Origin: a virus
Virus record (IMG/VR): IMGVR_UViG_3300034024_000020
Span: 51,704-115,703 of that record
Direction: 5' to 3' (one strand)
DNA length: 64,000 bases
The position numbers and the translations under genes were made by a program. How positions within the stretch are numbered: position 1 is the first letter of the stretch; each line of letters opens with the position of its first letter. The notes under the pieces are model-generated. The model made no database searches and had not been told where the DNA came from. It saw only the letters and a program-made list of their open reading frames with translations. Positions 6,399-64,000 of this stretch are shown here, piece after piece.

Positions 6399-6422
6399 AC
6401 GCCTCCTTCTTGGAAAATGTAA

Positions 6423-6458: not shown

Positions 6459-6473
6459 TGCTGGAGAAAGCAA

Positions 6474-6611: not shown

Positions 6612-6624
6612 TATGGAGTAAATA

Positions 6625-12339: not shown

Positions 12340-12345
12340 GGATTA

Positions 12346-50452: not shown

Positions 50453-50819
50453 TTTTCTCTCTCTGAATTTCCACCCATCTCTTCTGCTTTTGAGCAGTCG
50501 CTAATGGTGGGTCCTTACCGTAAAGAGAATGAAGCTTAAGATGGTGGTCATGGCATAAAGTTACCGTGTCCTCATACAACTCAGTCATATGTTCCGCGAT
50601 AAATCTATCTCGCACTTCTAAAACATCTTCGTCGGTCTTAATTGAAATTTTGTTGTCTCTAAGCCACTTATTGAAAAGGGGCGTTAAAGTGGAAAAATGA
50701 TGGAAATCGAGCTTCTCAGTGGCCCCGCAGATTCTACACTCCGTGCCTTTCTTATACCTTCCTTTAGCTCGGTCTCTAACGAATTTAATTGGGTCTCTCT
50801 TGAGCTTCGTAGCCACCAT
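50439..50819 (-). CDS. HNH endonuclease
   Basis: 126 residues from the ATG with AAAGGAG upstream; a longer reading would start in the promoter. ECRICGATEKLDFHHF gives the CxxC and the HH metal-binding pair, and VTLCHDHHLKLH the distal HxxxH. It is the HNH nuclease fold common as free-standing homing endonucleases, or in packaging, where an HNH protein works with the terminase. It carries its own strong promoter within the late block. Confidence 0.85.
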   Translation of the reverse strand: MVATKLKRDPIKFVRDRAKGRYKKGTECRICGATEKLDFHHFSTLTPLFNKWLRDNKISIKTDEDVLEVRDRFIAEHMTELYEDTVTLCHDHHLKLHSLYGKDPPLATAQKQKRWVEIQREKNGLC

Positions 50820-50838
50820 TTCTCCTTTAATTGTTCCA

Positions 50839-50867
50839 AGTATAACACTCCCGAGCACATATGTCAA
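50839..50867 (-). promoter_or_regulatory. Sigma70-type promoter for the HNH and portal genes
   Basis: Minus strand: TTGACA (complement of 50862-50867), 17-base spacer, TATACT (complement of 50839-50844). The start codon is 19 bases beyond the -10 region, with a good ribosome site. Confidence 0.85.
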
Positions 50868-50908
50868 GGAGTAAATTTTCGGATGAGTTGTGCTCTGATT
50901 GTATCGTA

Positions 50909-52444: not shown

Positions 52445-52445
52445 A

Positions 52446-53360
52446 TTAGAAGGTTCCGCCGTCTAAAACAACTCCGTCGATAGTACCACCTGTGATAGCT
52501 ACCGCATTGGCATTTTGAGATGCCATTGTGCCAAGAGTTGGCTTGTTTGTTAGATCGTTATATGATCCTGAAGTTGCAACAGTTGCTAGAGTTGGTCTAC
52601 CTGTAAGATCCGCATATGCACCCGAAGTTGCAACAGTAGCAAATGTAGGCTTACCTGAAATTACTGCCCAATCTGGTGTAATGTCTGCAAGTTCTACATA
52701 TGAAGCTTCAGCTGTCTTTGACCCAGAACCGCTATAAACCCAACGACGTCCGTCAGTGGTAGTAACAATACTACCCTCGTCAATCTCTGCTTGCTGTGGT
52801 GCTGAAAGGTTAGCAATAGAACCACTAGATACGATTACCTGACTTCCTGGTAGGAAGGGTAGACGTGCAATATCAATGGTACCACTGACAAGCTTAGACG
52901 CATCCAATCCAGGAATACGAGCCGCATCAAAGGTATCAGATGTAATCTTAGCTGCACTAAGGTCAGGAATACGTGCAATATTGAACGTACCACTTCCGAT
53001 CTTTCCTGCATCTAATGAAGGAATTGTAGCTGCATCTACACTGATTACAGTACCAGTAATATCAATACCGTTACCTTCTGTGTAAATAGAACCAGCATCG
53101 CCCCAACCAATATCATAGTCGGAGCCACTGTTCTTTTTAAGAACCTGACCTGTTGCACCTCCAGCTGGTAGCAACTTGCTAGTGCTGAAAGCGTCGTGAG
53201 AGAAAGCTACAACTGAGGTAGCTACACCTGATCCGTTATCACCCTTACCAATGTAAAGATAACCGTCTACGTTGTTGTGGGCTATCTGCCCTGATCTTAG
53301 TGTAGCTGGGGCACCAGCGGCACCAGTAAGTCTACGTGTTACTTGAAAAATTGTTGCCAT
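52446..53360 (-). CDS. Fibre-like protein with repeats
   Basis: 304 residues. A fibre-type start (LTGAAGAPATLRSGQIAHN, then DGYLYIGKGDNGSG) is followed by short repeats ending in AARIPGLDASKL, ARIPDLSAAKI and similar, and by GRPTLATVATSG / NKPTLGTMAS repeats near the C-terminus. Such repeats form trimeric beta or coiled fibres. One base separates it from the next gene. Confidence 0.65.
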   Translation of the reverse strand: MATIFQVTRRLTGAAGAPATLRSGQIAHNNVDGYLYIGKGDNGSGVATSVVAFSHDAFSTSKLLPAGGATGQVLKKNSGSDYDIGWGDAGSIYTEGNGIDITGTVISVDAATIPSLDAGKIGSGTFNIARIPDLSAAKITSDTFDAARIPGLDASKLVSGTIDIARLPFLPGSQVIVSSGSIANLSAPQQAEIDEGSIVTTTDGRRWVYSGSGSKTAEASYVELADITPDWAVISGKPTFATVATSGAYADLTGRPTLATVATSGSYNDLTNKPTLGTMASQNANAVAITGGTIDGVVLDGGTF

Positions 53361-53597
53361 TTAAAAGCTTCCGCCATCCAGTATTTCTGGAACACCTTCG
53401 TAAACTACGTTGGTAACCCCTGGATTTCCTTGAGGGCCGGGTTCACCGGGCTCACCGTCGTCCCCTTTAGGGCCAACTAATACTGAGACGCTTTGCAGCT
53501 TCTCCTGAAATTGTTCGTAGGCTACAGACAGAGATGAATGGACTCGCCATTGCAGCACTATAGGTGCCCTTATTTGTCTCCAGCCTACTGCTATCAT
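53361..53597 (-). CDS. Small collagen-like protein
   Basis: 78 residues. The C-terminal half has Gly-x-y triplets (GPKGDDGEPGEPGPQGNPG), a collagen-like trimerisation segment; the N-terminus is helical. It overlaps the preceding gene by four bases. It probably trimerises a fibre or links it to the capsid. Confidence 0.62.
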   Translation of the reverse strand: MIAVGWRQIRAPIVLQWRVHSSLSVAYEQFQEKLQSVSVLVGPKGDDGEPGEPGPQGNPGVTNVVYEGVPEILDGGSF

Positions 53598-53926
53598 GCC
53601 ACTGTTCCTTTGATCTCGATAATGAGTGGGTCAGTTTTGACTACTCCAAATCCCGGGACTGACAAGGCCGCGTTCATAACATATAAACCCGGAACTAACT
53701 CCGCTGTTTGTGCTTCAGTTAACCACATCATCCAGCCCGGAGGATCAAAGGATTCCAATATGGTAAACGTTTCAAGTACGGGTGTACTCGCTGATGGAAT
53801 AGAACCATTAGGACCCGCCTTCTTTAGTGCGGCAGTAATTGAAGTTACGTTATCCATCTCTCCCTCGACCAAGTCGAGGAACAATGTAAAACGCTCTCCA
53901 TTTCTAGCCCTATAGGTTCTTTCCAT
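53594..53926 (-). CDS. Small beta-rich structural protein
   Basis: 110 residues. Begins MERTYRARNGERFTLFLDLV and has an Ig-like beta pattern (VPGLYVMNAALSVPGFG), as seen in small virion proteins that sit before fibres. No family recognised. It adjoins the terminase stop without gap. Confidence 0.55.
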   Translation of the reverse strand: MERTYRARNGERFTLFLDLVEGEMDNVTSITAALKKAGPNGSIPSASTPVLETFTILESFDPPGWMMWLTEAQTAELVPGLYVMNAALSVPGFGVVKTDPLIIEIKGTVA

Positions 53927-55234
53927 TTACATACTTCCAACTGAATTCGTGTGACTATAGATAGCGTAACGAATAGCATCGGCCATGTGAGAAGCTTCAT
54001 TATGAACTGGCTTCTCTTTGACCAGATTAGGGTTAGGATCCCACCTGTACCCGTCTAGAGCTCTCAATACGTGCTCCATACGTTTAGGAACAATTAAGCG
54101 ATCCTGTTCGATGATGCTTCCCACGAATCCAATAGAGTCCGTGACGCTCTTCTTGTTTGCATTGATGGTGGCGATATCGTAGTCTCGCGCCAAGTCATAG
54201 CGTGTCTGCTGAGCTGCCGAGTCCAGATAGATAAAGTCAATATCCCACTTATCAATGAGCTTTTGAATCTCTTCAGCATGGGTCTTCGTTGACTTTGCGA
54301 CTTCATAGTATTCGTCGAGCACATAATATTTCTCTTCCTCATAGTGATAACCAATAACAACTAGAGCGGTAGGGTCCTTGAAACCAAGGTCAAGTCCCGC
54401 AATAACATCAACTTTATGACGTTCGCTATTGGGAGTAATATTATGATCTCTTATACAACCTTCATCAATAGTCCAAATCTGACCTTCATAAGCCTCGAAT
54501 GACGCCTCATACTCCTGCCTAAACTCGGCTATAGACATTGACGCTCGTGCGTCGTCAACGTCATTTTGAGACATTCTAGGGTTATCGTGATAGGTCGCGT
54601 GAATGGAGCACCACTCGGGGTATTTAGGACTTGATCCGCGATCATAAAGCTGAGCGAACCAGTTAGTCTTTCCTCGTGGTGTTGAGATGAAGATAGCTTT
54701 TGAATTTTCCTTATCTAGGGTTGGTCTCAAAGCTACGTTAAAGGCGTCCATTCCCTCAGAAAGGGCGGCCTCGTCGAAGATGATAAGGTCATAAGAACGT
54801 CCAACGACGCTGTCGACTTGGCTGACGGAACCCATTCTAATGGTGGAACCGTTTGCCAACTCAATGACCTTGTCCTTCATGTTATCCTTTGTGATCTCAA
54901 TCTTCAGATCATTCTTAATGAACCGCCGTTGAAGTTCGAATGAAATCTGAGAGAGAGAATAGTTTGGTGACATAATCAAAATGTTTGAGCCTGGCACCAA
55001 AGATACACAAAGCCCAATAATATTTGAAATGTATGTCTTTCCCTGACGTCGCGAAATTGCTGCAACAACAAATCTGTATTTGTTGATTGCATTAATAATC
55101 GCGATCTGGGAAGGTAGAGGATCTACTCCAAGCTCTTCTAAAACTCCTGTAATAGGTAGCTTCAAGAAAGGATTAGGTAGATCCTCTATGATATAATCTT
55201 GAATTACATCAGCTCTGCTGATTGTTACTGTCAT
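53927..55234 (-). CDS. Terminase large subunit
   Basis: 435 residues from the ATG at 55234; an upstream ATG at 55267 is possible but deeper inside the preceding gene. ATPase motifs: Walker A AAISRRQGKTYIS near residue 60 and Walker B YDLIIFDEAA near 148. The nuclease domain begins AGLDLGFKDPTALVVIG near 280, with a second acidic cluster in DFIYLDSAAQQ. It pumps DNA into the prohead through the portal and cuts concatemers. Confidence 0.9.
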   Translation of the reverse strand: MTVTISRADVIQDYIIEDLPNPFLKLPITGVLEELGVDPLPSQIAIINAINKYRFVVAAISRRQGKTYISNIIGLCVSLVPGSNILIMSPNYSLSQISFELQRRFIKNDLKIEITKDNMKDKVIELANGSTIRMGSVSQVDSVVGRSYDLIIFDEAALSEGMDAFNVALRPTLDKENSKAIFISTPRGKTNWFAQLYDRGSSPKYPEWCSIHATYHDNPRMSQNDVDDARASMSIAEFRQEYEASFEAYEGQIWTIDEGCIRDHNITPNSERHKVDVIAGLDLGFKDPTALVVIGYHYEEEKYYVLDEYYEVAKSTKTHAEEIQKLIDKWDIDFIYLDSAAQQTRYDLARDYDIATINANKKSVTDSIGFVGSIIEQDRLIVPKRMEHVLRALDGYRWDPNPNLVKEKPVHNEASHMADAIRYAIYSHTNSVGSM

Positions 55235-55598
55235 GGTCTGTAATCTCAATTCCTGTTCTAGAGACAACTAGGCTTCTCTTAACAAGTAGACCAAGTAGTC
55301 CGGTAATAACTACCATTAAGTTAACCATTGCGGCTAGACCAAGGTAGAATGTGTAATTCGCATGGGATTTAACGAAGAATAAAGCAAGAGTGGCAAACAC
55401 TATCATTAGTGCGCCACTGGCAACTACTGTATAAAGTGCCCAGTCTCTACGGTCATCTACTCTATCGGAGTTCTCCGATGGAATGACCGGAGACATCATG
55501 ACCGCACTTCTAACTTGCGTACCCCCCGTTGCCGGTGGTACAACGACGTTCTCGGCGGAAACCGTAGCAGTTTCCGCCGAGATGTTTGCATTGTCCAT
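55209..55598 (-). CDS. Two-TM membrane protein overlapping the terminase start
   Basis: 129 residues. Two hydrophobic segments near residues 55-72 and 82-105 (LYTVVASGALMIVFATLALF; GLAAMVNLMVVITGLLGLLV). A membrane protein inside a terminase block is unusual. The first 20 codons contain a perfect 12-base inverted repeat. The C-terminus overlaps the terminase start by 26 bases. Confidence 0.55.
   Translation of the reverse strand: MDNANISAETATVSAENVVVPPATGGTQVRSAVMMSPVIPSENSDRVDDRRDWALYTVVASGALMIVFATLALFFVKSHANYTFYLGLAAMVNLMVVITGLLGLLVKRSLVVSRTGIEITDHDSNNQQS
55551..55581. repeat. Perfect 12-bp inverted repeat inside the 55209 gene
   Basis: CTCGGCGGAAAC / GTTTCCGCCGAG with a seven-base loop. 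On the minus-strand mRNA it starts about 17 bases after the ATG and could slow or gate translation. It lies near the terminase genes, so a DNA-level role in packaging cannot be excluded. Confidence 0.8.
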
Positions 55599-55813
55599 TA
55601 AAGCTGAATGGTACCCTCGCCGCCAGCTGGATCAACTACTGGATCAGGACTATCACCTGGAACAGTCAAAGGAGGCTGAACCTCTGGAGTTGGCTGTACC
55701 GGTGAAGGTGCTGGTGGAGTTGGGGTAGGCTCAATTGGAGCCGGTGCTACAGGAGCTGGAGCAGGCTGGGACACAGCAGGCTCAGTTACTTCAGTTTTCT
55801 TCTTTGGAGGCAT
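55598..55813 (-). CDS. Proline-rich low-complexity protein
   Basis: 71 residues, about one third proline, with Pro-Ala-Pro and Pro-Thr-Pro runs (APAPVAPAPIEPTPTPPAP). The N-terminus is Lys-rich. Probably an extended linker-like protein; the frame is supported by tight packing between its neighbours (two bases upstream, one overlap downstream). Confidence 0.5.
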   Translation of the reverse strand: MPPKKKTEVTEPAVSQPAPAPVAPAPIEPTPTPPAPSPVQPTPEVQPPLTVPGDSPDPVVDPAGGEGTIQL

Positions 55814-55815
55814 AT

Positions 55816-56274
55816 TTATTTCTTCCCTGGGGTGCCAATCTTTGGTTCCGGACTAAAATCATCCGGTCCTTCCACGGGCCCCTCTTTTGGTTCCTCAGAC
55901 GGAACCGGGTCACTCTCAGACGCTAGGCGCTGGTTGACTTCATCATTTCGAACTTCCTGGTCCTTTAAAATCCCTAGCGCTTCATTTGCTTTAGCATTGT
56001 CGCGACGTGGGGTCTTAAGAGCTAGTGTCTGATCGACATTATCTCGGTCTTCAATAGTTAGTTCGTGCTGCTCATGAGCAGGCTGACGAACCGCGTTAGT
56101 TCCATCAAGGGGAACCTTGTGGAAACGACCATTATTATCAGTCCACTTCGCATATTCGCGAACTACGACTGCGTAGTCCGGAACTTCAGCATTTGGGCGT
56201 GGCTGTTCAGCCTTTAGATTGCTAGTCTGACGCTCGCTATCTGCGACCTTATCAACCTTTACTTCTTCTGCCAT
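55816..56274 (-). CDS. Hydrophilic low-complexity protein
   Basis: 152 residues, highly charged and mostly predicted disordered, with a Pro/Glu-rich C-terminus (SDPVPSEEPKEGPVEGPDD) and a more ordered middle (YAVVVREYAKWTDNNGRFH). It lies between the two terminase genes. No family recognised. Confidence 0.55.
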   Translation of the reverse strand: MAEEVKVDKVADSERQTSNLKAEQPRPNAEVPDYAVVVREYAKWTDNNGRFHKVPLDGTNAVRQPAHEQHELTIEDRDNVDQTLALKTPRRDNAKANEALGILKDQEVRNDEVNQRLASESDPVPSEEPKEGPVEGPDDFSPEPKIGTPGKK

Positions 56275-56276
56275 TC

Positions 56277-56699
56277 TTATTTACTCCTATTGGCAAGCAG
56301 CTTTTCCATCAGCCTGCCATAATTGCCTTCGCCAAAGTTGGCGATCTGTGTTACCTGAGCTGGTCCTTGCTCTTTCTGCAATTTCAACTCGTCCATACGC
56401 ATTTTATGCTGAAGGGCAAGAATTTCTAGAAGGTCTTTGGAGGTATATACACCAGTCTCTTCAGCCTCAGCTATCTTTGCATCAATTATTTTATCGAGAA
56501 GGGCTCCCATCTTATCCCTATTTCGATATCCCATATCAAGATAAATACCATCAAGATAGTCTTTTACGTCCTTGCGTCGAAGGGTTGCTACGACCTCATG
56601 AAGGGGTAGTTGCAACTGTTGTGCGACTTCTTCTGCGGTTCCAAGCTCTAAATAGGCATTAGCTATGTCGAAACCTTCTGGACTTATCTTGGTTAACAT
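56277..56699 (-). CDS. Terminase small subunit-like protein
   Basis: 140 residues from the ATG at 56699. The N-terminus has an HTH-like segment (IANAYLELGTAEEVAQQLQL then PLHEVVATLRRKDVKDYL), followed by a helical oligomerisation region (ALLDKIIDAKIAEAEETG), as in terminase small subunits that recognise the packaging site. First gene of the late operon. A GTG six bases upstream abuts the promoter -10 and is unlikely. Confidence 0.65.
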   Translation of the reverse strand: MLTKISPEGFDIANAYLELGTAEEVAQQLQLPLHEVVATLRRKDVKDYLDGIYLDMGYRNRDKMGALLDKIIDAKIAEAEETGVYTSKDLLEILALQHKMRMDELKLQKEQGPAQVTQIANFGEGNYGRLMEKLLANRSK

Positions 56700-56705
56700 A
56701 AACAC

Positions 56706-56734
56706 ATTATAGTCGAAATATTGGAATGTGTCAA
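56706..56734 (-). promoter_or_regulatory. Late-operon promoter (proximal)
   Basis: Minus strand: TTGACA (complement of 56729-56734), 17-base spacer, TATAAT (complement of 56706-56711). The expected RNA start coincides with the ATG of the terminase small subunit, so this promoter would give a leaderless message. Confidence 0.85.
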
Positions 56735-56825
56735 GGAGTAAATTATTTGGGGTAGTGGGGTGTTTGTGTAATTTGTTTGCGCCTTCTAGCTGTTTTTTGA
56801 CCTAATGTTGTACGTGAGGAGGGGA

Positions 56826-56913
56826 GGCCTCGGAGAGGCCAAAGTATAGTCTAATAACCGCCCCCTGTCAAGGATTATCTCACTAACATATGTTATGATC
56901 TTTTTTGTTGACG
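56826..56913. promoter_or_regulatory. Divergent promoter module 1 with hairpin
   Basis: Left to right: hairpin GGCCTC-gga-GAGGCC (56826-56840); minus-strand promoter with TATACT (56843-56848) and TTGACA (56866-56871), spacer 17, firing toward the terminase genes; then a 35-base stretch ending in a T6 run, and a plus-strand TTGACG at 56908-56913. The stretch GTCAAGGA to TTGAC is repeated almost exactly at 57983-58028 (module 2). Confidence 0.75.
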
Positions 56914-56990
56914 CTCCCTCAATAAAGACTAAGGTGATTGAACTACCCGGATGAGGCGGGCCGAAATTTCCAAGGTGCTAGGATTAAGAC

Positions 56991-57221
56991 ATGCGCGCTG
57001 CTACTGCCACCAATGTCTCCCCTCTTATTGTAATGGCAAAGACGGGAGGCTTCACGGCCGTCATCTCCTGCCGCTTTCGCTCGGCCCCTCGGGCCTATAG
57101 CGTTCCCGACATTCGGACGGCTCGCGCTATCGCGTCCTCCCTTATGTCTAGCGAAACGGGATACGTCTATAACGACGAAAGCCCGAACGCTATCGAAACC
57201 TATTATGGCGAGGCGAACTAA
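56991..57221 (+). CDS. Small hypothetical protein, first gene of the right block
   Basis: 76 residues from an ATG with AGGA eight bases upstream; an internal ATG at residue 15 is an alternative. GC-rich codons. Basic and Ser/Ala-rich with no membrane segment (FTAVISCRFRSAPRAYS). Probably an early protein by place; function unknown. Confidence 0.55.
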   Translation: MRAATATNVSPLIVMAKTGGFTAVISCRFRSAPRAYSVPDIRTARAIASSLMSSETGYVYNDESPNAIETYYGEAN

Positions 57222-57222
57222 G

Positions 57223-57417
57223 ATGGAAGCGCGCTTCTCAGACTTCCCCGCCGTCATCGCCTTCATTACCCTTGTCGTTTGCATGGGGGCGTTGCTAATG
57301 GCAATGGCGGGCTTCGGCAATTCGGAGGATATGCGAAACGTGTTCCTCTATAGCGCGGGGGCTTGCATCCCCTCCGCTTTGATCGCTTCCGCAATTTCTT
57401 TTAGCAGGAGGGGTTGA
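57223..57417 (+). CDS. Small two-TM protein
   Basis: 64 residues from the ATG one base after the preceding stop. Two hydrophobic stretches (VIAFITLVVCMGALLMAM and FLYSAGACIPSALIASAIS). Likely an inner-membrane protein. The next gene's strong ribosome site AGGAGGGG lies inside its end. Confidence 0.55.
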   Translation: MEARFSDFPAVIAFITLVVCMGALLMAMAGFGNSEDMRNVFLYSAGACIPSALIASAISFSRRG

Positions 57418-57420
57418 CAG

Positions 57421-57489
57421 ATGCACCCGCTAATGGCACTGTTCCTGCTCGGGATCGCGGTCCTATGGTTTGTTTGCAGGGGAAACTAA
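57421..57489 (+). CDS. 22-residue membrane microprotein
   Basis: ATG preceded by AGGAGGGG with ideal spacing. Almost the whole peptide is one membrane span (PLMALFLLGIAVLWFVCRGN). Single-span microproteins of this size are common among phage early genes that modulate host membrane complexes. The role is not known. Confidence 0.5.
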   Translation: MHPLMALFLLGIAVLWFVCRGN

Positions 57490-57490
57490 A

Positions 57491-57628
57491 ATGGCACAAT
57501 TTGCAGGATGGGCTTGCGGGGTTACTTTTTTTTGTGGTAATCCCCTATATCAGCTTCAAGGCAGAACAGGGAAGGCTCCGTCATGGGGAACAAATCAGCG
57601 AGGAAATTTGAGACGCCGCCTGACATAA
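57491..57628 (+). CDS. Small protein with a possible frameshift at a T8 run
   Basis: 45 residues as read (MAQFAGWACGVTFFCGNPLY...), with AGGGGAA upstream. A run of eight T lies at codons 12-14. Switching frame there gives a more protein-like membrane segment (VTFFVVIPYISFKAEQG) ending at 57611, close to the next gene. Either a real slip, a sequencing error or chance. Confidence 0.35.
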   Translation: MAQFAGWACGVTFFCGNPLYQLQGRTGKAPSWGTNQRGNLRRRLT

Positions 57629-57732
57629 GGCGCGCTTCAAACGAGCGGGAATGGCAACGTCCCCGTGATGGCATCGACATAGACCAATGGTTAGGCTCAG
57701 GCATTACCATTGGTAGCAGGAGGGGCATATGA
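57583..57732 (+). CDS. 49-residue hypothetical protein
   Basis: ATG with GGGAAGG eight bases upstream. Highly charged (MGNKSARKFETPPDIRRASN), with no membrane span. Its end overlaps the next ATG by four bases (ATATGA), and AGGAGG of the next gene is inside it. Probably real; function unknown. Confidence 0.5.
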   Translation: MGNKSARKFETPPDIRRASNEREWQRPRDGIDIDQWLGSGITIGSRRGI

Positions 57733-57881
57733 GGCTATCGAGCGGAGAGCATATCATAGCACTTGGGAAGGTATATGCTGAGGCATACGCTTCCCATATC
57801 AGAGCCGGTGTTGCTCATGCTGCTGCCCTGTCTATGGCTAAGCAGGCTATGATCCACTTTCATTCCGGGTTAAGCGAGTAG
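57729..57881 (+). CDS. 50-residue hypothetical protein
   Basis: ATG with AGGAGG five bases upstream. Helical and His/Ala-rich (HIIALGKVYAEAYASHIR). Last gene of the first short operon; module 2 hairpins start ten bases after its stop. Confidence 0.5.
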   Translation: MRLSSGEHIIALGKVYAEAYASHIRAGVAHAAALSMAKQAMIHFHSGLSE

Positions 57882-57890
57882 ACGAAGGCT

Positions 57891-58029
57891 CCCGATGATA
57901 TAACGTATCATCGGGGGTCGGACTCCGACCGCGCCGACGCAGCACAGGGCACACCTACATATAACATGGCCACATATGCGCCGTCAAGGACTATTTCAGC
58001 AACCTATGTTAAGAACTTTTTTATTGACT
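57891..58029. promoter_or_regulatory. Divergent promoter module 2 with tandem hairpins
   Basis: Hairpin CCCGATGATA-taacg-TATCATCGGG (57891-57915) is followed directly by GGTCGG-ACT-CCGACC (57916-57930). The minus-strand promoter has TTATAT (complement of 57959-57964), spacer 17, TTGACG (complement of 57982-57987). A plus-strand TTGACT lies at 58024-58029. The 46-base stretch between the two -35 sites matches module 1 closely. Confidence 0.75.
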
Positions 58030-58074
58030 GCTCCACTCTAGGCGCGCATAAGGGGTGGGTAAGGAGATAGGGCC

Positions 58075-58278
58075 ATGTTGCAGGGTGAAATTCGGTACTT
58101 CTACAAAGGCGCTTATCGGCAGGGCTGGATCATTTGCCGCCAAGGTTGCGGCTATAACATCGACGTGAACGGCCTCGGGATGCAGGAATGGTTCGTCGCG
58201 GGGCAGGTTCATTCCGTTGTTGACTTCCTTTCGACGGACTGCGATAACGAGGAAACTTTCGAGAGGATCGAGGCGTGA
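58075..58278 (+). CDS. Small hypothetical protein
   Basis: 67 residues from ATG with AAGGAG upstream. Begins MLQGEIRYFYKGAYRQGWI, beta-patterned, with two Cys pairs (CRQGC near residue 21). Overlaps the next GTG start by four bases. Function unknown. Confidence 0.55.
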   Translation: MLQGEIRYFYKGAYRQGWIICRQGCGYNIDVNGLGMQEWFVAGQVHSVVDFLSTDCDNEETFERIEA

Positions 58279-58433
58279 ACGGTTTCAGCGACCCGGATTA
58301 TAGCGACGGCTTCGATGACGGTTGGAATGACCGGGATGACGGTCGGACTTATCGGATCAAGAATGGCGCTTCGGACAATTATAAACGCGGTTACATGGCG
58401 GGATTTACCGCCGCCGCCGAGAGGGACCAATAA
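58275..58433 (+). CDS. 52-residue RMF-like small protein
   Basis: GTG start overlapping the preceding stop (GTGA). The sequence is built of Gly-aromatic repeats (YSDGFDDGWNDRDDGR, then YKRGYMAGF), similar in style to ribosome modulation factor/CrpP-like small proteins, where a GYxxG pattern recurs. Family link is tentative. Confidence 0.45.
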   Translation: MNGFSDPDYSDGFDDGWNDRDDGRTYRIKNGASDNYKRGYMAGFTAAAERDQ

Positions 58434-58434
58434 A

Positions 58435-58845
58435 ATGAGCGCTCAGGATGGAATGATTGCAATAGGCGGCCTAGCCGGTTTCATTTGCACGGGAACCGGC
58501 TTTGTAGTCATCGTCAAGGCGATGATACCGAAGCGTAAAAAGCCGGAACTTTCCACTTTCTGGGTTCAGGCTTTGGACCTTTTGACCTTGGATAAGGATA
58601 ATTGGGTTATCCCCAAGGATGACGTCAAAATGCTTTTCCACCCGCCTACGGGGCTTAGGCTCTGTTATGAGGGTTCGTATTATCGCCAAGAATGCAAGGC
58701 GATTGTTCCCGGCGGTGGCGAGGTGGAAATACCTCACGAGCACAGACAGGATTATATTAAGCTGTGCGAAAAACTACAGCAAATAATCGCCGTCCGGAAA
58801 TTGACCACGGAGGCGAAGCCTTACGAGGTGGAATTTAGTTCTTGA
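58435..58845 (+). CDS. Single-TM protein with soluble C-terminal domain
   Basis: 136 residues from the ATG at 58435; longer readings upstream overlap the previous gene and are rejected. A membrane span near residues 8-28 (IAIGGLAGFICTGTGFVVIV) is followed by a basic stretch and a cytoplasmic domain of about 100 residues. Module-type promoter words are absent after it; instead a perfect sigma70 promoter overlaps its stop. Confidence 0.55.
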   Translation: MSAQDGMIAIGGLAGFICTGTGFVVIVKAMIPKRKKPELSTFWVQALDLLTLDKDNWVIPKDDVKMLFHPPTGLRLCYEGSYYRQECKAIVPGGGEVEIPHEHRQDYIKLCEKLQQIIAVRKLTTEAKPYEVEFSS

Positions 58846-58870
58846 CTTCGCTACTAAACCCGGCTATAAT
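58842..58870 (+). promoter_or_regulatory. Sigma70-type promoter for the 58896 gene
   Basis: TTGACT at 58842-58847, 17-base spacer, TATAAT at 58865-58870, preceded by TTTAGTTC. Same type as the promoters at 1819, 4856, 14888 and 42195. AAAGGGAG and ATG follow in a 25-base leader. Confidence 0.9.
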
Positions 58871-58895
58871 GGTCGGACCAACAAAGGGAGATTTT

Positions 58896-59147
58896 ATGCA
58901 ACGGCTTCAGCTTATCGACGCGGACGGAACTTCGAATATCCTCGAAGTTCAGGACGACCGGGCCATCAACATCGTCGTGGACGATGGCACGATCTACACT
59001 TTTGCAAGCGTCACCACGGTCGACGGCGAAAAGACGGCGGTTTACCGGCGCGGAACAACCCTCGACTTGATCGACGGCTTCCTGTTCACGCCCGGCTCCA
59101 ACGACACAGCGACGGAAGTCGACTGGCACTTTCTCGGGGAGGACTAA
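58896..59147 (+). CDS. Small acidic protein under a strong promoter
   Basis: 83 residues from ATG with AAAGGGAG upstream. Acidic and beta-patterned (LQLIDADGTSNILEVQDD), with no membrane span. The strong promoter suggests abundant production. Function unknown; DNA mimicry or host-protein binding are possible for acidic phage early proteins but nothing here proves it. Confidence 0.55.
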   Translation: MQRLQLIDADGTSNILEVQDDRAINIVVDDGTIYTFASVTTVDGEKTAVYRRGTTLDLIDGFLFTPGSNDTATEVDWHFLGED

Positions 59148-59149
59148 AA

Positions 59150-59293
59150 ATGGGCGCGTGGGAAAAGGGGCTTGAAGCCCACCTGAAAGGGAAGCGTAAA
59201 AATCCCTTTTCCCACGGCTCTGCCGACTGGCACGAATGGAGGCGAGGCTGGAAAGACAGGGACAGGATTGCTACGTTCCGCTTTTGTTCCTGA
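59150..59293 (+). CDS. 47-residue ribosome modulation factor-like protein
   Basis: MGAWEKGLEAHLKGKRKNPF followed by ADWHEWRRGWKDRDR matches the pattern of ribosome modulation factor (W/YxxG...A...GK...NPF...W..GW). RMF dimerises ribosomes during stationary phase. A phage copy could modulate host translation; this is inference. Its stop codon lies inside the first hairpin of module 3, so the end of the protein is encoded by the repeat itself. Confidence 0.5.
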   Translation: MGAWEKGLEAHLKGKRKNPFSHGSADWHEWRRGWKDRDRIATFRFCS

Positions 59294-59406
59294 GCGGGCG
59301 GAAGTCCGCCCCCGCCGCAGCGAGCCGCTACTCAGAGCATAGCAAATTTCAGGAACCGCTGTCAAGCAATCTTTTCTCTTGACTAAAACTATTTTGACCC
59401 TAGAAG
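59278..59406. promoter_or_regulatory. Divergent promoter module 3 with tandem hairpins
   Basis: Hairpin CCGC/GCGG (59278-59297), then GGGCGG-AAGT-CCGCCC (59296-59311). Minus-strand promoter: TTGACA (complement of 59360-59365), spacer 18, TATGCT (complement of 59336-59341) with TG extended -10. Plus-strand TTGACT at 59379-59384 with TAGAAG at 59401-59406. The two -35 words are separated by 13 bases (GTCAAG, 11 bases of DNA, CTTGAC). Confidence 0.8.
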
Positions 59407-59412
59407 GGTAAT

Positions 59413-59646
59413 ATGACCGACGCAGAAAAGATCGCCGCTTTCCTCGCCTCCAAAGGCGCGACGAAGCTTCCCACGGGCGCTAGCAACAATGTCACTAGCG
59501 GGCAATGGTATAAAGCCAGCCAAGGGGTTGTTGACTTGCGCTCGAAATTGGCGCAAGGTCCCTTACCGGAGCCGAAGAAAAAGGCTTCGAAACCTGCCCG
59601 CAAGGGTGAGACTTTCTTTCATGACGCCTATAGGAGGGCAAACTAA
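59413..59646 (+). CDS. Small hypothetical protein
   Basis: 77 residues from ATG with AAGGG upstream. Helical start (MTDAEKIAAFLASKGATKLP) and a Lys/Pro-rich C-terminus (PEPKKKASKPARKG). Its end carries the AGGAGGG of the next gene. Possibly DNA- or RNA-binding because of the basic tail. Confidence 0.55.
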   Translation: MTDAEKIAAFLASKGATKLPTGASNNVTSGQWYKASQGVVDLRSKLAQGPLPEPKKKASKPARKGETFFHDAYRRAN

Positions 59647-59985
59647 ATGTTCGATGATTATTTCCCCTATATCGTAGCGGCCGCCCTTTTCATCATGGCG
59701 CTTGCGCTCTGGTACGGCTGGCGCGCTTGCAATCGCGTTCCGCGTGATCCGACGGTTTCGGAAAACGACGAGATTTACGCCGATGGCTTCGACGCGGGCT
59801 ATCAGGACGGCCATTCGGACGGCTATTTCGACGAGCCGCGCCGCCCCGATTATGCGGTCGGGGACGACGACAAGCCGACGCGCTATGCTCTCGGCTATCG
59901 CGAAGGCTATGCGGAAGGCTATGAGGCTGGACAAGCCGAAGGCGACCGCGACGAGGAAGCGGGAGGGCTCGATGAAAGAGTGTGA
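59647..59985 (+). CDS. Single-TM protein with Gly-Tyr repeats
   Basis: 112 residues. N-terminal membrane anchor (YIVAAALFIMALALWYGW), then a soluble part with repeating G-aromatic units (ADGFDAGYQDGHSDGYFD; YALGYREGYAEGYEAG). This repeat resembles those in the 58275 protein. Possibly membrane-tethered inhibitor of host translation or other complex; inference only. Confidence 0.55.
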   Translation: MFDDYFPYIVAAALFIMALALWYGWRACNRVPRDPTVSENDEIYADGFDAGYQDGHSDGYFDEPRRPDYAVGDDDKPTRYALGYREGYAEGYEAGQAEGDRDEEAGGLDERV

Positions 59986-60082
59986 GCCGAGCGACGATTT
60001 CTTCTATGAACCCACCTGTCATTGGTGTGGCGAGCCAGAAGACGATTGTGCTTGCGACAATGAGGAAGAGCCATTCCTCTAG
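59972..60082 (+). CDS. 36-residue acidic zinc-finger-like peptide
   Basis: ATG with GGGAGGG upstream, overlapping the preceding gene by 14 bases. Four cysteines in a CHWC ... CAC arrangement (CHWCGEPEDDCACD) are consistent with one zinc site; the rest is very acidic. Real gene likely given ribosome site; function unknown. Confidence 0.5.
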   Translation: MKECEPSDDFFYEPTCHWCGEPEDDCACDNEEEPFL

Positions 60083-60089
60083 GAAACCC

Positions 60090-60234
60090 GGCCGTTCTGG
60101 ATTTGTTCCAGGGCGGTCGGAATTCCGACCCCGAATTTTTGGCCCCACTCCTCTAAGAACATAATAGCAGATGCCACCACCCTGTCAAGCAATCTTTTCT
60201 CTTGCGTTGCAAATAATTTTGCCCTACCTAGAAC
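60090..60234. promoter_or_regulatory. Divergent promoter module 4 with tandem hairpins
   Basis: Outer stem GGCCG/CGGTC with inner CTGGA/TCCAG (60090-60118), then GGTCGG-AATT-CCGACC (60115-60130). Minus promoter TTGACA (complement of 60183-60188), spacer 16, TATTAT (complement of 60161-60166), extended TGC. Plus site: TTGCAA at 60207-60212 and CCTAGAAC at 60227-60234. Confidence 0.82.
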
Positions 60235-60254
60235 GGGAAGCTAGAGGAGATTTT

Positions 60255-60791
60255 ATGACCTACGTTGTTTTCGATCTCGACGGAACCGTGATCGACAGTT
60301 CCCACCGCCACCTTGCGAAGCCTGACGGCTCCGTAGACTTGGAACACTGGTTCGACAACGCCACGCCGGAAAAAATCGCCCTCGACGGATTGCTTCCGCT
60401 TGCGGACTCCATGCGCGCAATCCACCGGGCCGGTCATCGGGTCATTATCTGCACGTCCCGCTCGTTTCAGCCCGCCGACCTGAAATTTTTGGAGGATAAT
60501 GACCTCCCCTATCACCACCTTTTCAGCCGTCCCGGCTTTTTCGTCGGGCGCGACGATCCGCGCTATGCCGATAGCTATTTCGGCTTCATCGGGGATGCGC
60601 GTTCCGACGAACTAATCAAGGCGGAACAGCTTGCCGAATTTTTCCGTTCGGAAGGCTTCGAAAGCATTGCGGATGCTCCTGCTATCATGTATGATGACAA
60701 TCTGAAGGTCATTCGCAAGATGAACGAAATCGGCCTTCCCTGTCTCAATGCGGTCAACGTGAACGCGCAAATTTTAAGGAACGCGGCATAA
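60255..60791 (+). CDS. HAD-family phosphatase, PNK 3'-phosphatase-like
   Basis: 178 residues from ATG with AGAGGAGA upstream. Motif I VFDLDGTVIDS near residue 6, motif II VIICTSRS near residue 70, and motif IV region MYDDNLKV near 150 are HAD hallmarks; the ordering resembles the 3'-phosphatase domain of T4 polynucleotide kinase. No kinase domain is present, so it would trim 3'-phosphates on DNA or RNA, or act on small metabolites. Confidence 0.65.
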   Translation: MTYVVFDLDGTVIDSSHRHLAKPDGSVDLEHWFDNATPEKIALDGLLPLADSMRAIHRAGHRVIICTSRSFQPADLKFLEDNDLPYHHLFSRPGFFVGRDDPRYADSYFGFIGDARSDELIKAEQLAEFFRSEGFESIADAPAIMYDDNLKVIRKMNEIGLPCLNAVNVNAQILRNAA

Positions 60792-60910
60792 TGGCGAATA
60801 TCGACAAAATCCCGAACCCGGAGCATACGGCTCTAGCAGTCGCGGCAATTCGTCTTCGAAAGGTTCGGGAGGAAGCGGATTTCATCGACAGACAATTCGA
60901 AAGGAAATAG
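60791..60910 (+). CDS. 39-residue helical peptide
   Basis: ATG overlapping the HAD stop (TAATG). Helical and charged (AAIRLRKVREEADFIDRQFE). Next gene's ATG is one base after its stop, with AAAGGAAA at its end. Function unknown. Confidence 0.45.
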   Translation: MANIDKIPNPEHTALAVAAIRLRKVREEADFIDRQFERK

Positions 60911-60911
60911 A

Positions 60912-61184
60912 ATGAGAAAAATCAGATACAAACTCGATATCGGCTATGCCGGTTGTGGCGACGAGGGAACGGAAACGGTCCCCGACGATATGACCGATGC
61001 CGATATTGACGCTATGGTTCAGGACATGGCGCAAGAACACGCCGCAAGCTGGGAAGGCGATAATCGTCTCTGCTGGGATGAGGATATGTCCGAGGAGGAC
61101 TATCAAGACGCCACGGAACATTTTTACGAAGGCGTTTGCGGCTCGTGGTCTTTTGTCCTTGACGGCGACGAAGACGAGGACTAG
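60912..61184 (+). CDS. Small acidic hypothetical protein
   Basis: 90 residues, very acidic (about 25 Asp/Glu), three Cys. MRKIRYKLDIGYAGCGDEGT is followed by a helical region (DADIDAMVQDMAQEHA). No membrane span. Last gene before module 5. Function unknown. Confidence 0.5.
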   Translation: MRKIRYKLDIGYAGCGDEGTETVPDDMTDADIDAMVQDMAQEHAASWEGDNRLCWDEDMSEEDYQDATEHFYEGVCGSWSFVLDGDEDED

Positions 61185-61192
61185 GATAAACC

Positions 61193-61331
61193 GACCGTTC
61201 TGGATTTGTTCCCGGGCGGTCGGAATTCCGACCGCGTTTTCTCAAAACGCACCCCTGCTAAATATAACAGGTGAAAAATCTTTGTCAAGCCCATCTTTTC
61301 TGTTGCAAACATTTTTTACCTAGCCTAGAAC
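61193..61331. promoter_or_regulatory. Divergent promoter module 5 with three hairpins
   Basis: Outer stem GACCG/CGGTC (61193-61221), then GGTCGG-AATT-CCGACC (61218-61233), then an extra GCGTTTT-ctc-AAAACGC (61234-61250). Minus promoter TTGACA (complement of 61283-61288), spacer 16, TATATT (complement of 61261-61266). Plus site: TTGCAA 61303-61308 and CCTAGAAC 61324-61331. Confidence 0.82.
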
Positions 61332-61386
61332 AATCTCACGGCGGCGGGACGGTCCCAAAGCTGACAACCGACAAGGATGATTTCAG

Positions 61387-61638
61387 ATGCGACGTTCAAT
61401 TTTGGGGCTGTGTGCCCTTGCCCTTCCGCTCGCAGCCCTCGGCGCGTGCAACATTCCCGATCCGCGACCGGCGCAGCAAGCCGAATGCGACAATCTCGGC
61501 GGCACCTACCGGGCCGATCCGGAGGGCGCTCGCGAGGACGAGTGCACGGTGACGGCGCGCAATGGCGTTCCCTTCACCATCGAATACGACGACGTTCATA
61601 CCGCTTCGGGCGCTCCGGCGACCGGCGGCGACGACTAA
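61387..61638 (+). CDS. Small lipoprotein
   Basis: 83 residues. Signal peptide with Arg-Arg start and hydrophobic core (MRRSILGLCALALPLAALGA), then the lipobox cysteine at residue 21 (LGAC). The mature part is acidic and contains two more Cys that could pair. Phage lipoproteins such as T5 Llp block receptors and exclude superinfection; that role is a guess here. AAGGATG upstream. Confidence 0.7.
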   Translation: MRRSILGLCALALPLAALGACNIPDPRPAQQAECDNLGGTYRADPEGAREDECTVTARNGVPFTIEYDDVHTASGAPATGGDD

Positions 61639-61639
61639 G

Positions 61640-61891
61640 ATTTTAGGGCCGACCGTTCCCAAGTCGGCTAAAACGCGAGTGATCGCTACCGGCCCTAAAT
61701 CGCTTCCGATGCTATCTCAATTTAGCAAGTCGAGACTAAAATAACCTGCCTAGCAAGCGGCTCTCGCAGGGGACCTCGAAAAATGTCCTGCCGCAAAGGG
61801 ACAAGGGAGACTTGGAAACTCCCCGGAAGCAAAATGAAAAGGTGACGGTACAAGCCCGTTAATCCGCGACCGTGCGGAGCCACCTTTTCCC
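61640..61891 (+). ncRNA. Gene-free region with several stems, structured RNA candidate
   Basis: No convincing gene. Stems: TTTAGGGCC/GGCCCTAAA (61642-61650 with 61691-61699) closing a GCGA-gtga-TCGC hairpin with a GNRA loop (61675-61686); GGGAG/CTCCC (61805-61823); and a three-way junction of AAAAGGTG/CACCTTTT (61837-61844 with 61881-61888), ACGG/CCGT (61845-61859) and TCCGC/GCGGA (61863-61878). Promoter of module 5 would transcribe it after the lipoprotein. It does not match tRNA, tmRNA or cobalamin riboswitch layouts as I know them. Confidence 0.45.
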
Positions 61892-61942
61892 TATTGACTG
61901 TCAAGCCGATAATGGGTAGCCTAGGGAGGCAGTCACGGTTCC

Positions 61943-62079
61943 GGTCGTCCTAGGTTGGGGCGGCCGGAATTCCGGCCCCGCCCGCAACGGTCGGTTTCCT
62001 CTAAGACCATAATAGCAGGTTCGGCAAGCCTGTCAAGCAAACATTTCGCTTGCAAGCAAATTATTTTTCCTCTAACAAG
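61943..62079. promoter_or_regulatory. Divergent promoter module 6 with tandem hairpins
   Basis: Outer stem GGTCG/CGGCC (61943-61965), then GGCCGG-AATT-CCGGCC (61962-61977). Minus promoter TTGACA (complement of 62031-62036), spacer 16, TATTAT (complement of 62009-62014) with TGC in front. Plus site: TTGCAA at 62050-62055 and CTAACAAG at 62072-62079. Immediately left (61904-61912) is a palindrome TTGACTGTCAA. Confidence 0.8.
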
Positions 62080-62128
62080 GTTCTACCGGGATGGCCCGGC
62101 GACCGTAAACGAAAGGATGAAGGTCAAG

Positions 62129-62284
62129 ATGGCGATTAACAAAAGACGAGCGGAGCGCATGGCGCGACGCAGCGACGCGGAATTGGTCCGCTTCGTTCAT
62201 GCCAAAACGCTTTCCAGCGCGGCGGCCTATTACGCACTCGAAAAGCGGGGCAAGCTGTCCCTGCTCGCGAAGGAGGTGCGCTAG
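62129..62284 (+). CDS. 51-residue basic protein
   Basis: ATG with GAAGG upstream; ATG at 62117 is an alternative, giving four more residues. Arg/Lys-rich start (MAINKRRAERMARRSDAELV) typical of nucleic-acid-binding small proteins; helical rest. Its end overlaps the next GTG by one base, and the next gene's AAGGAGGTG lies inside it. Confidence 0.5.
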   Translation: MAINKRRAERMARRSDAELVRFVHAKTLSSAAAYYALEKRGKLSLLAKEVR

Positions 62285-62460
62285 TGAACGCTCGCGCCAC
62301 CCGTCGCCGCGAAGGGGCGCTTGCTCGCCTTCGCACTCAGCTTCAATCGGGCACTCGCCCCTCTCAGGTTCCCGGCCTGAAAGGTTGCCGGGTAGACTTG
62401 ACGGAAGCCGATGTTTCCCGTATCAAGGCGGAAATCGCCACCCTCGAACGGAGGATTTAA
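62284..62460 (+). CDS. 58-residue basic protein
   Basis: GTG start behind an excellent ribosome site AAGGAGGTG. Arg-rich N-terminus (NARATRRREGALARLRTQ) and a helical C-terminus (SRIKAEIATLERRI). Probably DNA- or RNA-binding; no family recognised. Confidence 0.5.
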   Translation: MNARATRRREGALARLRTQLQSGTRPSQVPGLKGCRVDLTEADVSRIKAEIATLERRI

Positions 62461-62461
62461 T

Positions 62462-62596
62462 ATGCGTATCGTAGTCGGACGCGGTAACAACCGCCACGTT
62501 TTCGACGTTCCTCCCCGCAAGGATAAGGTGGCGCTGGAACGCGTTGCCGAGGACGTCAAGGCTTTTCTTTTTCGCCCCGCCCTGCTAGGGCGCTAG
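62462..62596 (+). CDS. 44-residue protein
   Basis: ATG one base after the previous stop, with GGAGG upstream. MRIVVGRGNNRHVFDVPPRK, then a helical segment. Last gene of this operon. Function unknown. Confidence 0.45.
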   Translation: MRIVVGRGNNRHVFDVPPRKDKVALERVAEDVKAFLFRPALLGR

Positions 62597-62682
62597 GGTT
62601 CGGCGGACGGAAAATCCTCTTTCCCAATTCCCCTTTAACCTTAGTAAGAACGACGGGGATACGCTGGAATTGCAGGATTTTG

Positions 62683-62719
62683 GAGCGGGTGGGGCTGGCA
62701 AGTCTCACCCGCTCTTTTT
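62683..62719 (+). terminator. Rho-independent terminator just before the 62733 gene
   Basis: Stem GAGCGGGTG / CACCCGCTC (nine perfect pairs, loop of 14 bases) followed by T5. The 62597-62682 stretch before it holds no gene. The ribosome site of the 62733 gene begins three bases after the T run, so this could be an attenuator for that gene. Confidence 0.88.
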
Positions 62720-62732
62720 ATTAGGAGGATTT

Positions 62733-62903
62733 ATGGAACCGAAATTCAAATATGCCTATAAGACGCAGGGTTCCGAAGGCTGGGAACAAATTGCGTTTGA
62801 AATGAGCGATGGAAGCACGATTTTCATTGACTTATGGCAGGGACGCTTTAGAGATAGCTTTTGGATGGACACAGAAGGAAAAATCCATGCTTCGACAAGT
62901 TGA
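62733..62903 (+). CDS. 56-residue hypothetical protein
   Basis: ATG with AGGAGG six bases upstream, right behind the terminator. Beta-patterned (KFKYAYKTQGSEGWEQIAFE). The start of the next gene lies within its end. Function unknown. Confidence 0.5.
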   Translation: MEPKFKYAYKTQGSEGWEQIAFEMSDGSTIFIDLWQGRFRDSFWMDTEGKIHASTS

Positions 62904-63177
62904 AATTTCAGACCGGACCCGCAAGGCGGGCGAAGTCGGGGGTTATCTAGGGATGGTCCTAATTCATGGCGCTACGCTTCCGGTTACGGTCGGAAATATC
63001 ATGGGCTGGACTGACAAACTCCCGCCGCTTTCGATGGTCCTGCTAGTCTGGCTTGGCCTCATTCTCTTTTTCATCCGGGCGCTTGTGCGCTTCGATTGGC
63101 TTTATCTGATTAGCAACGGAATTGGTTTCACGTTCAATTCCATCCTGCTAATCATTATCGTGCTTTACGGGAGTTAA
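62887..63177 (+). CDS. Small membrane protein with about three TM segments
   Basis: 96 residues from ATG with GAAGGA upstream. Hydrophobic segments VGGYLGMVLIHGATLPVTV, SMVLLVWLGLILFFIRAL and FNSILLIIIVLYG. Inner-membrane protein; function unknown. Confidence 0.6.
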   Translation: MLRQVEISDRTRKAGEVGGYLGMVLIHGATLPVTVGNIMGWTDKLPPLSMVLLVWLGLILFFIRALVRFDWLYLISNGIGFTFNSILLIIIVLYGS

Positions 63178-63181
63178 GGCG

Positions 63182-63424
63182 ATGGAGGATGACCGCTATG
63201 AAATCACCTATGAAGGCGGCTTTATGGCCGCCTTCAATAATAACGGCGAAACCCGTTATTATATCGAAAAGAAACTAAACGAGGGCGGTTTCTTTCCCGA
63301 AGATTTTGCCGTAACGAAAAACGGCGACCCTCTCACCGTAGAAGCGCGCTACAGCGTAAGCATCGGGGGGGCAGTAAATGAGAACGCTTTATCACGCTTA
63401 CACGGAGGAACATGGCGAATGTGA
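63182..63424 (+). CDS. Small hypothetical protein
   Basis: 80 residues from ATG with AAGGCG upstream. Beta-patterned (YEITYEGGFMAAFNNNG). The C-terminal 16 residues overlap the start of the next gene in another frame. Function unknown. Confidence 0.5.
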   Translation: MEDDRYEITYEGGFMAAFNNNGETRYYIEKKLNEGGFFPEDFAVTKNGDPLTVEARYSVSIGGAVNENALSRLHGGTWRM

Positions 63425-63596
63425 AGCCATGTTCTCCGAAACCGGCGAATTGCTAGGCATTTGGTCCTGCAATGACGCCACTTGGCGGAACGAATACTTT
63501 TCAGACTTTATGGAGGCTCTAGGCTTCAAGGTCGAAAACGCTTCGCCGGAATTGGTTGACAAACTCATTGCAACCGCTAAAGAATACTGGGGCTAG
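63378..63596 (+). CDS. Small hypothetical protein
   Basis: 72 residues from an ATG inside the preceding gene, preceded by a G-rich tract that can pair with 16S rRNA. Three Cys in the first third (ECEAMFSETGELLGIWSC). Acidic helical C-terminus. Function unknown. Confidence 0.5.
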   Translation: MRTLYHAYTEEHGECEAMFSETGELLGIWSCNDATWRNEYFSDFMEALGFKVENASPELVDKLIATAKEYWG

Positions 63597-63610
63597 GAAA
63601 GGAACCCAAA

Positions 63611-63832
63611 ATGCAACTTGCTAATTTCACCCCGGAAGAGCAGAAGCTGGCACTTTCGGAAATTCGCCGGAACCTCGACGAAGCCGAACGGATTTTCGAG
63701 GGGAACGATTATCACGCCACGGATGCAGAGCGGATGACGCGGCTTCACTTTCACTTGAACGAGGGGAGCCGTCAGCTTTCGCGGATCAAGGTCGCGGCTC
63801 GCCGTCAGCTTTGGTACGCGCAGCAACGCTAA
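63611..63832 (+). CDS. Small helical protein
   Basis: 73 residues from ATG with AGGAAAGGAA upstream. Almost wholly helical and charged (FTPEEQKLALSEIRRNLDEA). Last complete gene of the window; module 7 hairpins start eight bases after its stop. Confidence 0.55.
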   Translation: MQLANFTPEEQKLALSEIRRNLDEAERIFEGNDYHATDAERMTRLHFHLNEGSRQLSRIKVAARRQLWYAQQR

Positions 63833-63839
63833 GGTTTCT

Positions 63840-64000
63840 GGCCGTTCCGGTTTTGTTCCGGGGCGGCCGGAAGTCCGGCCCCGCCGCCGCAGGCCGGGCC
63901 TCCCTAGAACTTAAATAGCACCACCTAATAACGCTGTCAAGCGAAAAGATTGCTTGACATAACTTTTTTCACCTAAGCAGAATATAGCACCTAGCGCCCG
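63840..64000. promoter_or_regulatory. Divergent promoter module 7, cut by the window end
   Basis: Outer stem GGCCG/CGGCC with inner CCGG/CCGG (63840-63868), then GGCCGG-AAGT-CCGGCC (63865-63880). Minus promoter TTGACA (complement of 63935-63940), spacer 17, TATTTA (complement of 63912-63917) with TGC. Plus site TTGACA 63954-63959, followed by CCTAAGCAG. The driven gene lies outside the window. Confidence 0.8.

Follow-up and report, generated by a model that had tools for sequence, protein, structure and literature searches.

A recurring module at the operon boundaries of the arm

The DNA analyzed here is a 64,000-nucleotide stretch of a virus genome, positions 51704–115703 and thus the right part of the 115,703-base record IMGVR_UViG_3300034024_000020; we refer to this whole stretch as the window. 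Toward its right end lies a GC-rich arm of plus-strand, mostly tiny genes (GC about 50–55%, against 38–49% elsewhere), in which a module recurs at the boundaries between operons. It consists of a hairpin, a predicted minus-strand sigma70 promoter, which we call P−, and a weaker plus promoter, and it is found at seven boundaries in the window and at an eighth outside it. The two ends of the record share a 173-base overlap, so that the arm continues into the contig start, whose first bases we cite as L009; the eighth copy lies there, at about L009:1571–1680, and copy 7 appears again at the contig start owing to the overlap. P− is oriented toward the plus-strand genes that have just ended, and no gene is evident on its own side.

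Copy 1 opens with the hairpin GGCCTC-gga-GAGGCC (56826–56840, +), followed by a P−, TTGACA-17-TATACT (56843–56871, −), and a plus promoter candidate, TTGACG-16-TAAGGT (56908–56935, +), with the palindrome TAACATATGTTA between the two promoters. The double hairpin of copy 2 (57891–57930, +, made up of 57891–57915 and 57916–57930) stands before a weak P−, TTGACG-17-TTATAT (57959–57987, −), which scores 9.7 in its other register, TTGACG-18-TATATG, and before the plus candidate TTGACT-17-CATAAG (58024–58052, +). Copy 3 combines GGGCGG-aagt-CCGCCC (59296–59311, +) with a P−, TTGACA-18-(TGC)TATGCT (59336–59365, −), and with TTGACT-16-TAGAAG (59379–59406, +). The hairpins of copies 4 and 5 can each be drawn in two ways. 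Copy 4 has a 14-bp hairpin with G.U pairs (60088–60120) or GGTCGG-AATT-CCGACC (60115–60130; together 60088–60130, +), then a P−, TTGACA-16-(TGC)TATTAT (60161–60188, −), and TTGCAA-16-TAGAAC (60207–60234, +). Copy 5 has a long hairpin (61191–61223) or GCGGTCGG-AATT-CCGACCGC with a short T-run (61216–61235; together 61191–61235, +), then a P−, TTGACA-16-(TGT)TATATT (61261–61288, −), and TTGCAA-17-TAGAAC (61303–61331, +). Copy 6 ends a short stretch without an evident gene; its hairpins (61937–61977, +), among them GGCCGG-AATT-CCGGCC (61962–61977), precede a P−, TTGACA-16-(TGC)TATTAT (62009–62036, −), and TTGCAA-17-TAACAA (62050–62078, +). Copy 7, finally, has hairpins at 63833–63880 (+; 63833–63875 with G.U pairs, or alternatively 63865–63880), a P−, TTGACA-17-(TGC)TATTTA (63912–63940, −; score 10.6), and TTGACA-18-CAGAAT (63954–63983, +).

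Promoters were scored with a matrix of approximate E. coli frequencies plus a bonus for TG. On this E. coli-like scale the plus promoters, which have what we take to be an alphaproteobacterial look, reach 5.1–10.6 and P− 9.7–15.4, P− being the higher in seven of the eight copies and tied in copy 7 (both 10.6). The P− spacers are 16–18 bases long with good boxes in all but the two weak copies, 2 and 7. At a score of at least 13, the minus strand of the arm and its continuation holds eight promoters where 0.15 would be expected (20 dinucleotide shuffles): six module copies (1, 3, 4, 5, 6, and 8), the ordinary terminase promoter, and one at L009:2631 in a geneless stretch. Copies 2 and 7 fall below this score.

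A preliminary description of this DNA had placed seven copies here, and all were found; its central proposal is supported, namely that a divergent-promoter module with an almost constant distance to a hairpin is repeated in an early region. It had gone too far in assigning the module to every operon boundary, as the gap at about 62597–62735 has a T-run terminator (62682–62715) and no P−, and a plus promoter at 58842 lacks a neighbouring P−, as do others identified by eye at about 61894 and at L009:987, 1510, and 2263. The facing −35 words it gave for the five right copies, GTCAAG-N11-CTTG, are exact in four, copy 5 having GTTG after 12 bases, while in the two left copies the words are indeed 35 bases apart, with 28 of these 35 bases identical. 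The distance from the hairpin to the minus −10 box, given there as 25–32 bases in six copies, is 24–31 bases in six of the seven window copies and in the eighth, and only 2 in copy 1. The window copies share sequence among themselves (repeats D1, D2, and D4), and the cores between the −35 words of copies 3 and 7 are inverses of each other. We also observed that the two ends of the record in the overlap (63828–64000 and L009:1–173) differ inside the copy-7 palindrome, as GGAAGTCC and GGACTTCC, looking as though its core had been inverted, a difference that may reflect population variation or assembly.

Two terminase genes stand beside the arm, the large subunit (53927–55267, −), 48.1% identical over 94% to that of Vibrio T5-like phages, and the small subunit (56277–56705, −). 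Inside the arm is a HAD phosphatase (60255–60791, +) homologous to T5-like dmp, a marker of pre-early genes; it matches genes annotated dmp and, among the best 30 of 381 records, is 34.1–35.4% identical to the annotated dmp of phi 3 and VCPH. The phosphatase of one relative (L151) also matches, among the best 60 of 896 records, dmp of Salmonella and E. coli T5-like phages. In T5 itself, dmp is located in the terminal repeat, the first DNA to enter the cell. Because the terminase adjoins the arm and a dmp homologue lies within it, the arm looks, from its sequence, like the pre-early or first-step-transfer (FST) region of an uncultivated T5-like phage. The assembly has a single copy of the arm plus the 173-base overlap, and a repeat at both genome ends is not visible there. 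A search for nearly identical named phages gave no match for 50000–64000, and T5 A1 had no match in the record of the window phage at E 0.01. A1 was found in two relatives that bear the module (G056 and G059), with P− sites on either side. An exonuclease-like protein at L009:241–963, a weak match to the DNA polymerase exonuclease family, may be a stand-in for A1: among seven records, which are possibly fragments, two have A1 and the other five the exonuclease-like protein, and never both (further loci in this comparison are L128 at about 5596–7005 and L133 at about 11232–12710).

Recurrence and geometry in T5-like relatives

To obtain the loci of relatives we searched with the terminase, the exonuclease, and the phosphatase; the exonuclease gave no locus in viral contigs as a single query and three as an alignment query. 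The regions of two relatives, L114 (genome G001) and L024, which is the same as L111 (genome G002), were read by eye. When 181 loci, duplicates included, were screened for strong antisense promoters, 122 had none, 28 had one, and 31 had two or more. For closer comparison we chose 15 regions because they showed the feature, namely the arm and 14 others with antisense promoters; as L121, one of the 14, carries just one P− and no T5-like terminase in its record, we count 13 contigs besides that of the window phage as having the layout together with a T5-like terminase. The preliminary description had taken the lack of the minus-strand words in relatives as one outcome that would speak against it; the comparison gave the opposite, the −35 and −10 words recurring at this position in many T5-like contigs whose spacers differ.

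In the 15 regions we counted 109 strong P− and 59 strong plus promoters, whereas shuffles predict 2.8 on each strand; the assignment to sense or antisense here and below depends on a crude caller of open reading frames (ORFs). Most P− read TTGACA-N16-18-TAAAAT or TATAAT, with an A/T-rich stretch ahead of the −10 box and with TG before that box in 80 of 109, a frequency that, like the identity of the hexamers, was partly selected for by the matrix. Within a phage the spacers are 32% identical over 404 pairs and the hexamers 90%; since sites were chosen by hexamer score, only the spacer figure is informative, and the divergence of the spacers indicates that the copies are not fresh duplicates. 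Three late-operon promoters were removed before the counts that follow, which leaves 106 P−.

Behind the −10 box of P− we found the word GGCGC in 88 of the 106 sites, compared with 5% of random windows. Its offset from the −10 box is 1 in 41 sites, 2–5 in 14, 20–23 in 32, and 27 in one, that is, 55 short offsets and 33 long. In copies 3 and 8 of the window phage the −10 box is followed on the minus strand by AGTAGCG, and a similar word is present in 16 of the 33 long-offset copies of relatives. Upstream of the −35 box of P−, four regions (L114, L139, L167, and L121) repeat a perfect palindrome, CATTACAAATTTGTAATG, of which window copy 1 has a shorter counterpart; judged by sequence, these palindromes look like operators.

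In an unselected set of all 76 new phosphatase loci, duplicates included, P− with GGCGC occurred in 34, including 14 of the 16 best-ranked, and at least two P− in 38, with totals of 179 P− and 167 plus promoters. A T5-like terminase accompanied 15 of 18 phosphatase loci, where fragments could miss the terminase by chance. The pattern TTGACA-N17/18-TAAAATCGGCGC was present in at least 120 stretches of viral contigs; 161 matches listed, overlapping loci included, divided into 76 antisense, 39 sense, and 46 unclear, and 64 of them had a hairpin of at least 8 bp within 60 nt. Of the pattern-bearing records tested among the matches listed, 30 of 50 had a T5-like terminase, one of them a weak match (E 6.6e-23), and here too fragments could miss it by chance. 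By comparison, the pattern turned up in 18 stretches of bacterial and archaeal genome sequence totalling 257 billion bases, near an estimated chance value of about 15 at equal base frequencies. Although the arm resembles the T5 FST region in its position, its dmp homologue, and the A1 of two relatives, the scanned stretches of T5, phi 3, TS3, and VCPH had no strong intergenic antisense promoter.

A perfect hairpin of at least 8 bp precedes 52 of the 106 P−, about half, and 33 such hairpins with P− stand at the ends of plus ORFs. Among gene-end hairpins of at least 9 bp, a T-run follows 1 of 31 with P− and 10 of the 20 that lack it (Fisher p 1.2e-4, copies within one phage not being independent); the counts are 3 of 33 versus 13 of 24 at a cut of 8 bp and 1 of 29 versus 5 of 13 at 10 bp. 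The distance from the hairpin to P− is also clustered, at 3–15 bases in 22 of 51 and 25–42 in 27, the remaining two being at 56. The hairpins appear to be part of the plus-strand RNA and not of the minus transcript, because those of copies 4, 5, and 7 fold better on the plus strand (z −3.3 to −3.7 versus −1.4 to −1.7; −3.67 versus −1.73 for copy 4) and form G.U pairs there, and because C(UUCG)G loops occur on that strand in three relatives. Copy 3 shows no such bias, its values being opposite (z −0.6 plus, −1.5 minus). Together with the missing T-runs beside P− and the clustered distances, plus-RNA hairpins direct attention to where plus transcripts end. The window phage's own copies fit this less neatly: copies 4, 5, and 8 have short T-runs, and some hairpins can take two exclusive folds, which would suit a switch as well.

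Other observations concern the surroundings of the module. L009 from about 1700 to 2850 is a long stretch with no evident genes, with repeats and with GAACAAAA boxes, a word that also occurs in the minus reading of the window hairpins; by eye, this stretch resembles the T5 injection stop signal in place and look. A weak match to Rfam RF03154 at 61645–61696 (+), a possible type-P3 twister-like RNA, scores 23.3 bits, under the gathering score of 39.9 (E 0.66 in 14 kb, 0.019 in 401 bases); it heads a 266-nt stretch (61640–61905) that folds well (z −3.2). In all, Rfam gave two matches on 50000–64000, both under the gathering score.

Possible roles of the antisense promoter

The sequences show the anatomy of the module, its recurrence across phages, the spacing that it prefers, and how seldom a T-run accompanies P−. 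The reading we favor, at somewhat less than an even chance, is that the gene-less antisense promoter and the U-poor hairpin act together as a promoter-assisted terminator and insulator between packed pre-early operons. A plus-strand polymerase leaving an operon would make a 3′ hairpin, in most relatives one without the U-run for intrinsic termination, and would then meet a polymerase loaded on, or leaving, a strong head-on P−, whose −10 box is mostly 3–15 or 25–42 bases past the hairpin. The collision would free the plus transcript, whose 3′ end the hairpin would fix or shield, and would keep polymerase from reading through into the following plus promoter, often within tens of bases behind P−. 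We infer here that P− fires, that collision releases the RNA, and that the phage benefits. The preliminary description had judged the layout to be more than operon separation needs; our comparison suggests instead that the module itself may be a special means of such separation.

There are precedents for parts of this scheme. A preprint reports that head-on collisions positioned by nascent hairpins end the transcription of convergent E. coli genes (PMC13082048). These collision-dependent bidirectional terminators likewise have an RNA hairpin between head-on units and a polymerase spacing influenced by hairpins, but there both sides are genes, whereas P− is gene-less and, so far as predicted promoters go, recurs at many operon ends per virus in many viruses. 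By analogy, the module looks like a convergent-gene collision terminator minus the second gene. In an engineered part with a terminator and an antisense promoter just past the 3′ end of a gene, repression came about equally from collision and from antisense RNA (PMC4731013); the phage module shares the position of the antisense promoter and differs in being natural, arrayed, and mostly equipped with U-poor hairpins in place of the terminators used there.

Several observations weigh against collision-assisted termination. A plus promoter instead of a hairpin faces 21 of the 106 P−, and one more has both, so that 22 sites are face to face with a strong promoter (for example, L118:7527–7630, L122 at about 10639, and L114:11355–11460), with 26–79 bases between the −10 boxes. 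A further 33 have neither a perfect 8-bp hairpin nor a facing promoter, including five of the seven sites in the window, whose perfect stems mostly measure 6 bp. Tandem P− about 91–96 bases apart (L125, L122, and L112) are not explained by operon termination, and GGCGC, which the window phage lacks altogether (0 of 7), has no role in the collision model. Copies 4, 5, and 8 also carry a short T-run, and one of the hairpins entered as lacking P− in the T-run comparison is that of copy 2, the P− of which scores too low to be counted. The strong promoters of the arm itself divide into three antisense, four sense, and two mixed, as classified with crude ORFs of at least 60 aa, many genes being shorter. 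Moreover, polymerases on translated genes were inferred to survive or avoid about 85% of collisions (PMC4731013). The facing pairs, the tandem P−, the 33 bare sites, and GGCGC leave room for antisense or short RNAs or for a role at the level of DNA in the part of the genome that enters first.

One such alternative, which we consider unlikely, is that P− makes a cis-antisense RNA that covers the upstream operon at its 3′ end and shuts off the pre-early genes, like a repeated lambda oop. In lambda, oop is a single site, with the short oop RNA behind cII. P− is directed into the gene 3′ end, as this requires, and in L111/L024 some copies, read by eye, have a hairpin and a minus-direction T-run that would yield RNAs of roughly 30–60 nt (one counted at a minimum of five T), yet such a T-run is present at only 11 of the 51 P− hairpins, which argues against a conserved, defined short RNA, and P− is found in tandem arrays and facing another promoter as well. 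T5 pre-early transcripts do peak at 15 min and then fall (PMC7472727), and convergent lambda pO reduces transcription from pR (PMC3985674); pO, also a phage promoter convergent to a main transcript, differs from P− in being tied to replication initiation (PMC3985674).

We give the same low probability to the proposal that P− and GGCGC are mainly a signal at the level of DNA or for the binding of polymerase, serving as polymerase traps or as marks for two-step DNA entry, replication, or nicking, with the transcripts as by-products. The preferred GGCGC offsets, about 20 bases or two helical turns apart, agree with it, as do the tandem and face-to-face promoters, which leave little room for a gene, and the correspondence of the region to T5 first-step-transfer DNA. 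Against it stand the window phage, which has the module without the word, and the fact that we know of no binding protein. The T5 major nick in the terminal repeat is also at GCGC beside a palindrome, but three of the four T5 nick sites that we read by eye have no such palindrome. We rejected the more specific idea that the boxes are nick sites: the nick at 9748/9749 of T5 (minus AAAA^GCGC beside a palindrome) is alike, and R-GCGC is shared, but the full consensus R/GCGCRGG (PMC3517423) fits 1 of 88 GGCGC sites. Separately, the four annotated T5 major nick sites (L030:9661, L194:10250, L194:27660, and L195:16651) have, by eye, a minus-strand GTAAT or GTAAC word some 35 bases upstream, which could be the other half of the T5 nick signal.

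Minus-strand genes as the purpose of P− were also rejected, as the minus ORFs overlap plus genes and were judged by eye to be shadows. Least probable of all, in our estimate, are ordinary divergent promoters and ordinary terminators multiplied by duplication, with P− a leaky by-product of AT-rich −35 regions: divergent firing is common in bacterial promoters, the window copies share sequence, and strong promoters are plentiful on both strands in the chosen as in the unselected regions, but spacers diverge while the GGCGC offset is kept, P− is never outscored by the plus promoter of its copy, and the strong promoters in the rest of the window phage genome are 28 sense, 3 antisense, and 8 mixed.

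Meaning for T5-like phages

Taken at its broadest, collision-assisted termination would make the module an undescribed class of terminator, in which a strong gene-less head-on promoter replaces the U-run, in two helically phased registers and with a GGCGC box perhaps read by a protein, and which wires the first-entering DNA of a broad T5-like group. This wider claim we regard as doubtful. Among the papers listed by our literature searches, judged on titles and the openings of abstracts, none describes such promoters in T5-like phages. On a purely speculative note, leftward polymerases could also be brakes on transcription-driven DNA entry.

If the favored reading is true, a promoter would be used as a part of a terminator many times in one group of viruses, which would provide natural test pieces for collision termination. 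The pattern TTGACA-N17/18-TAAAATCGGCGC is in addition a handle on T5-like pre-early regions in environmental data. The switching of T5 between transcription classes is called unknown in PMC7472727, and the module, on that reading, bears on how T5-like phages manage their first-entering DNA.

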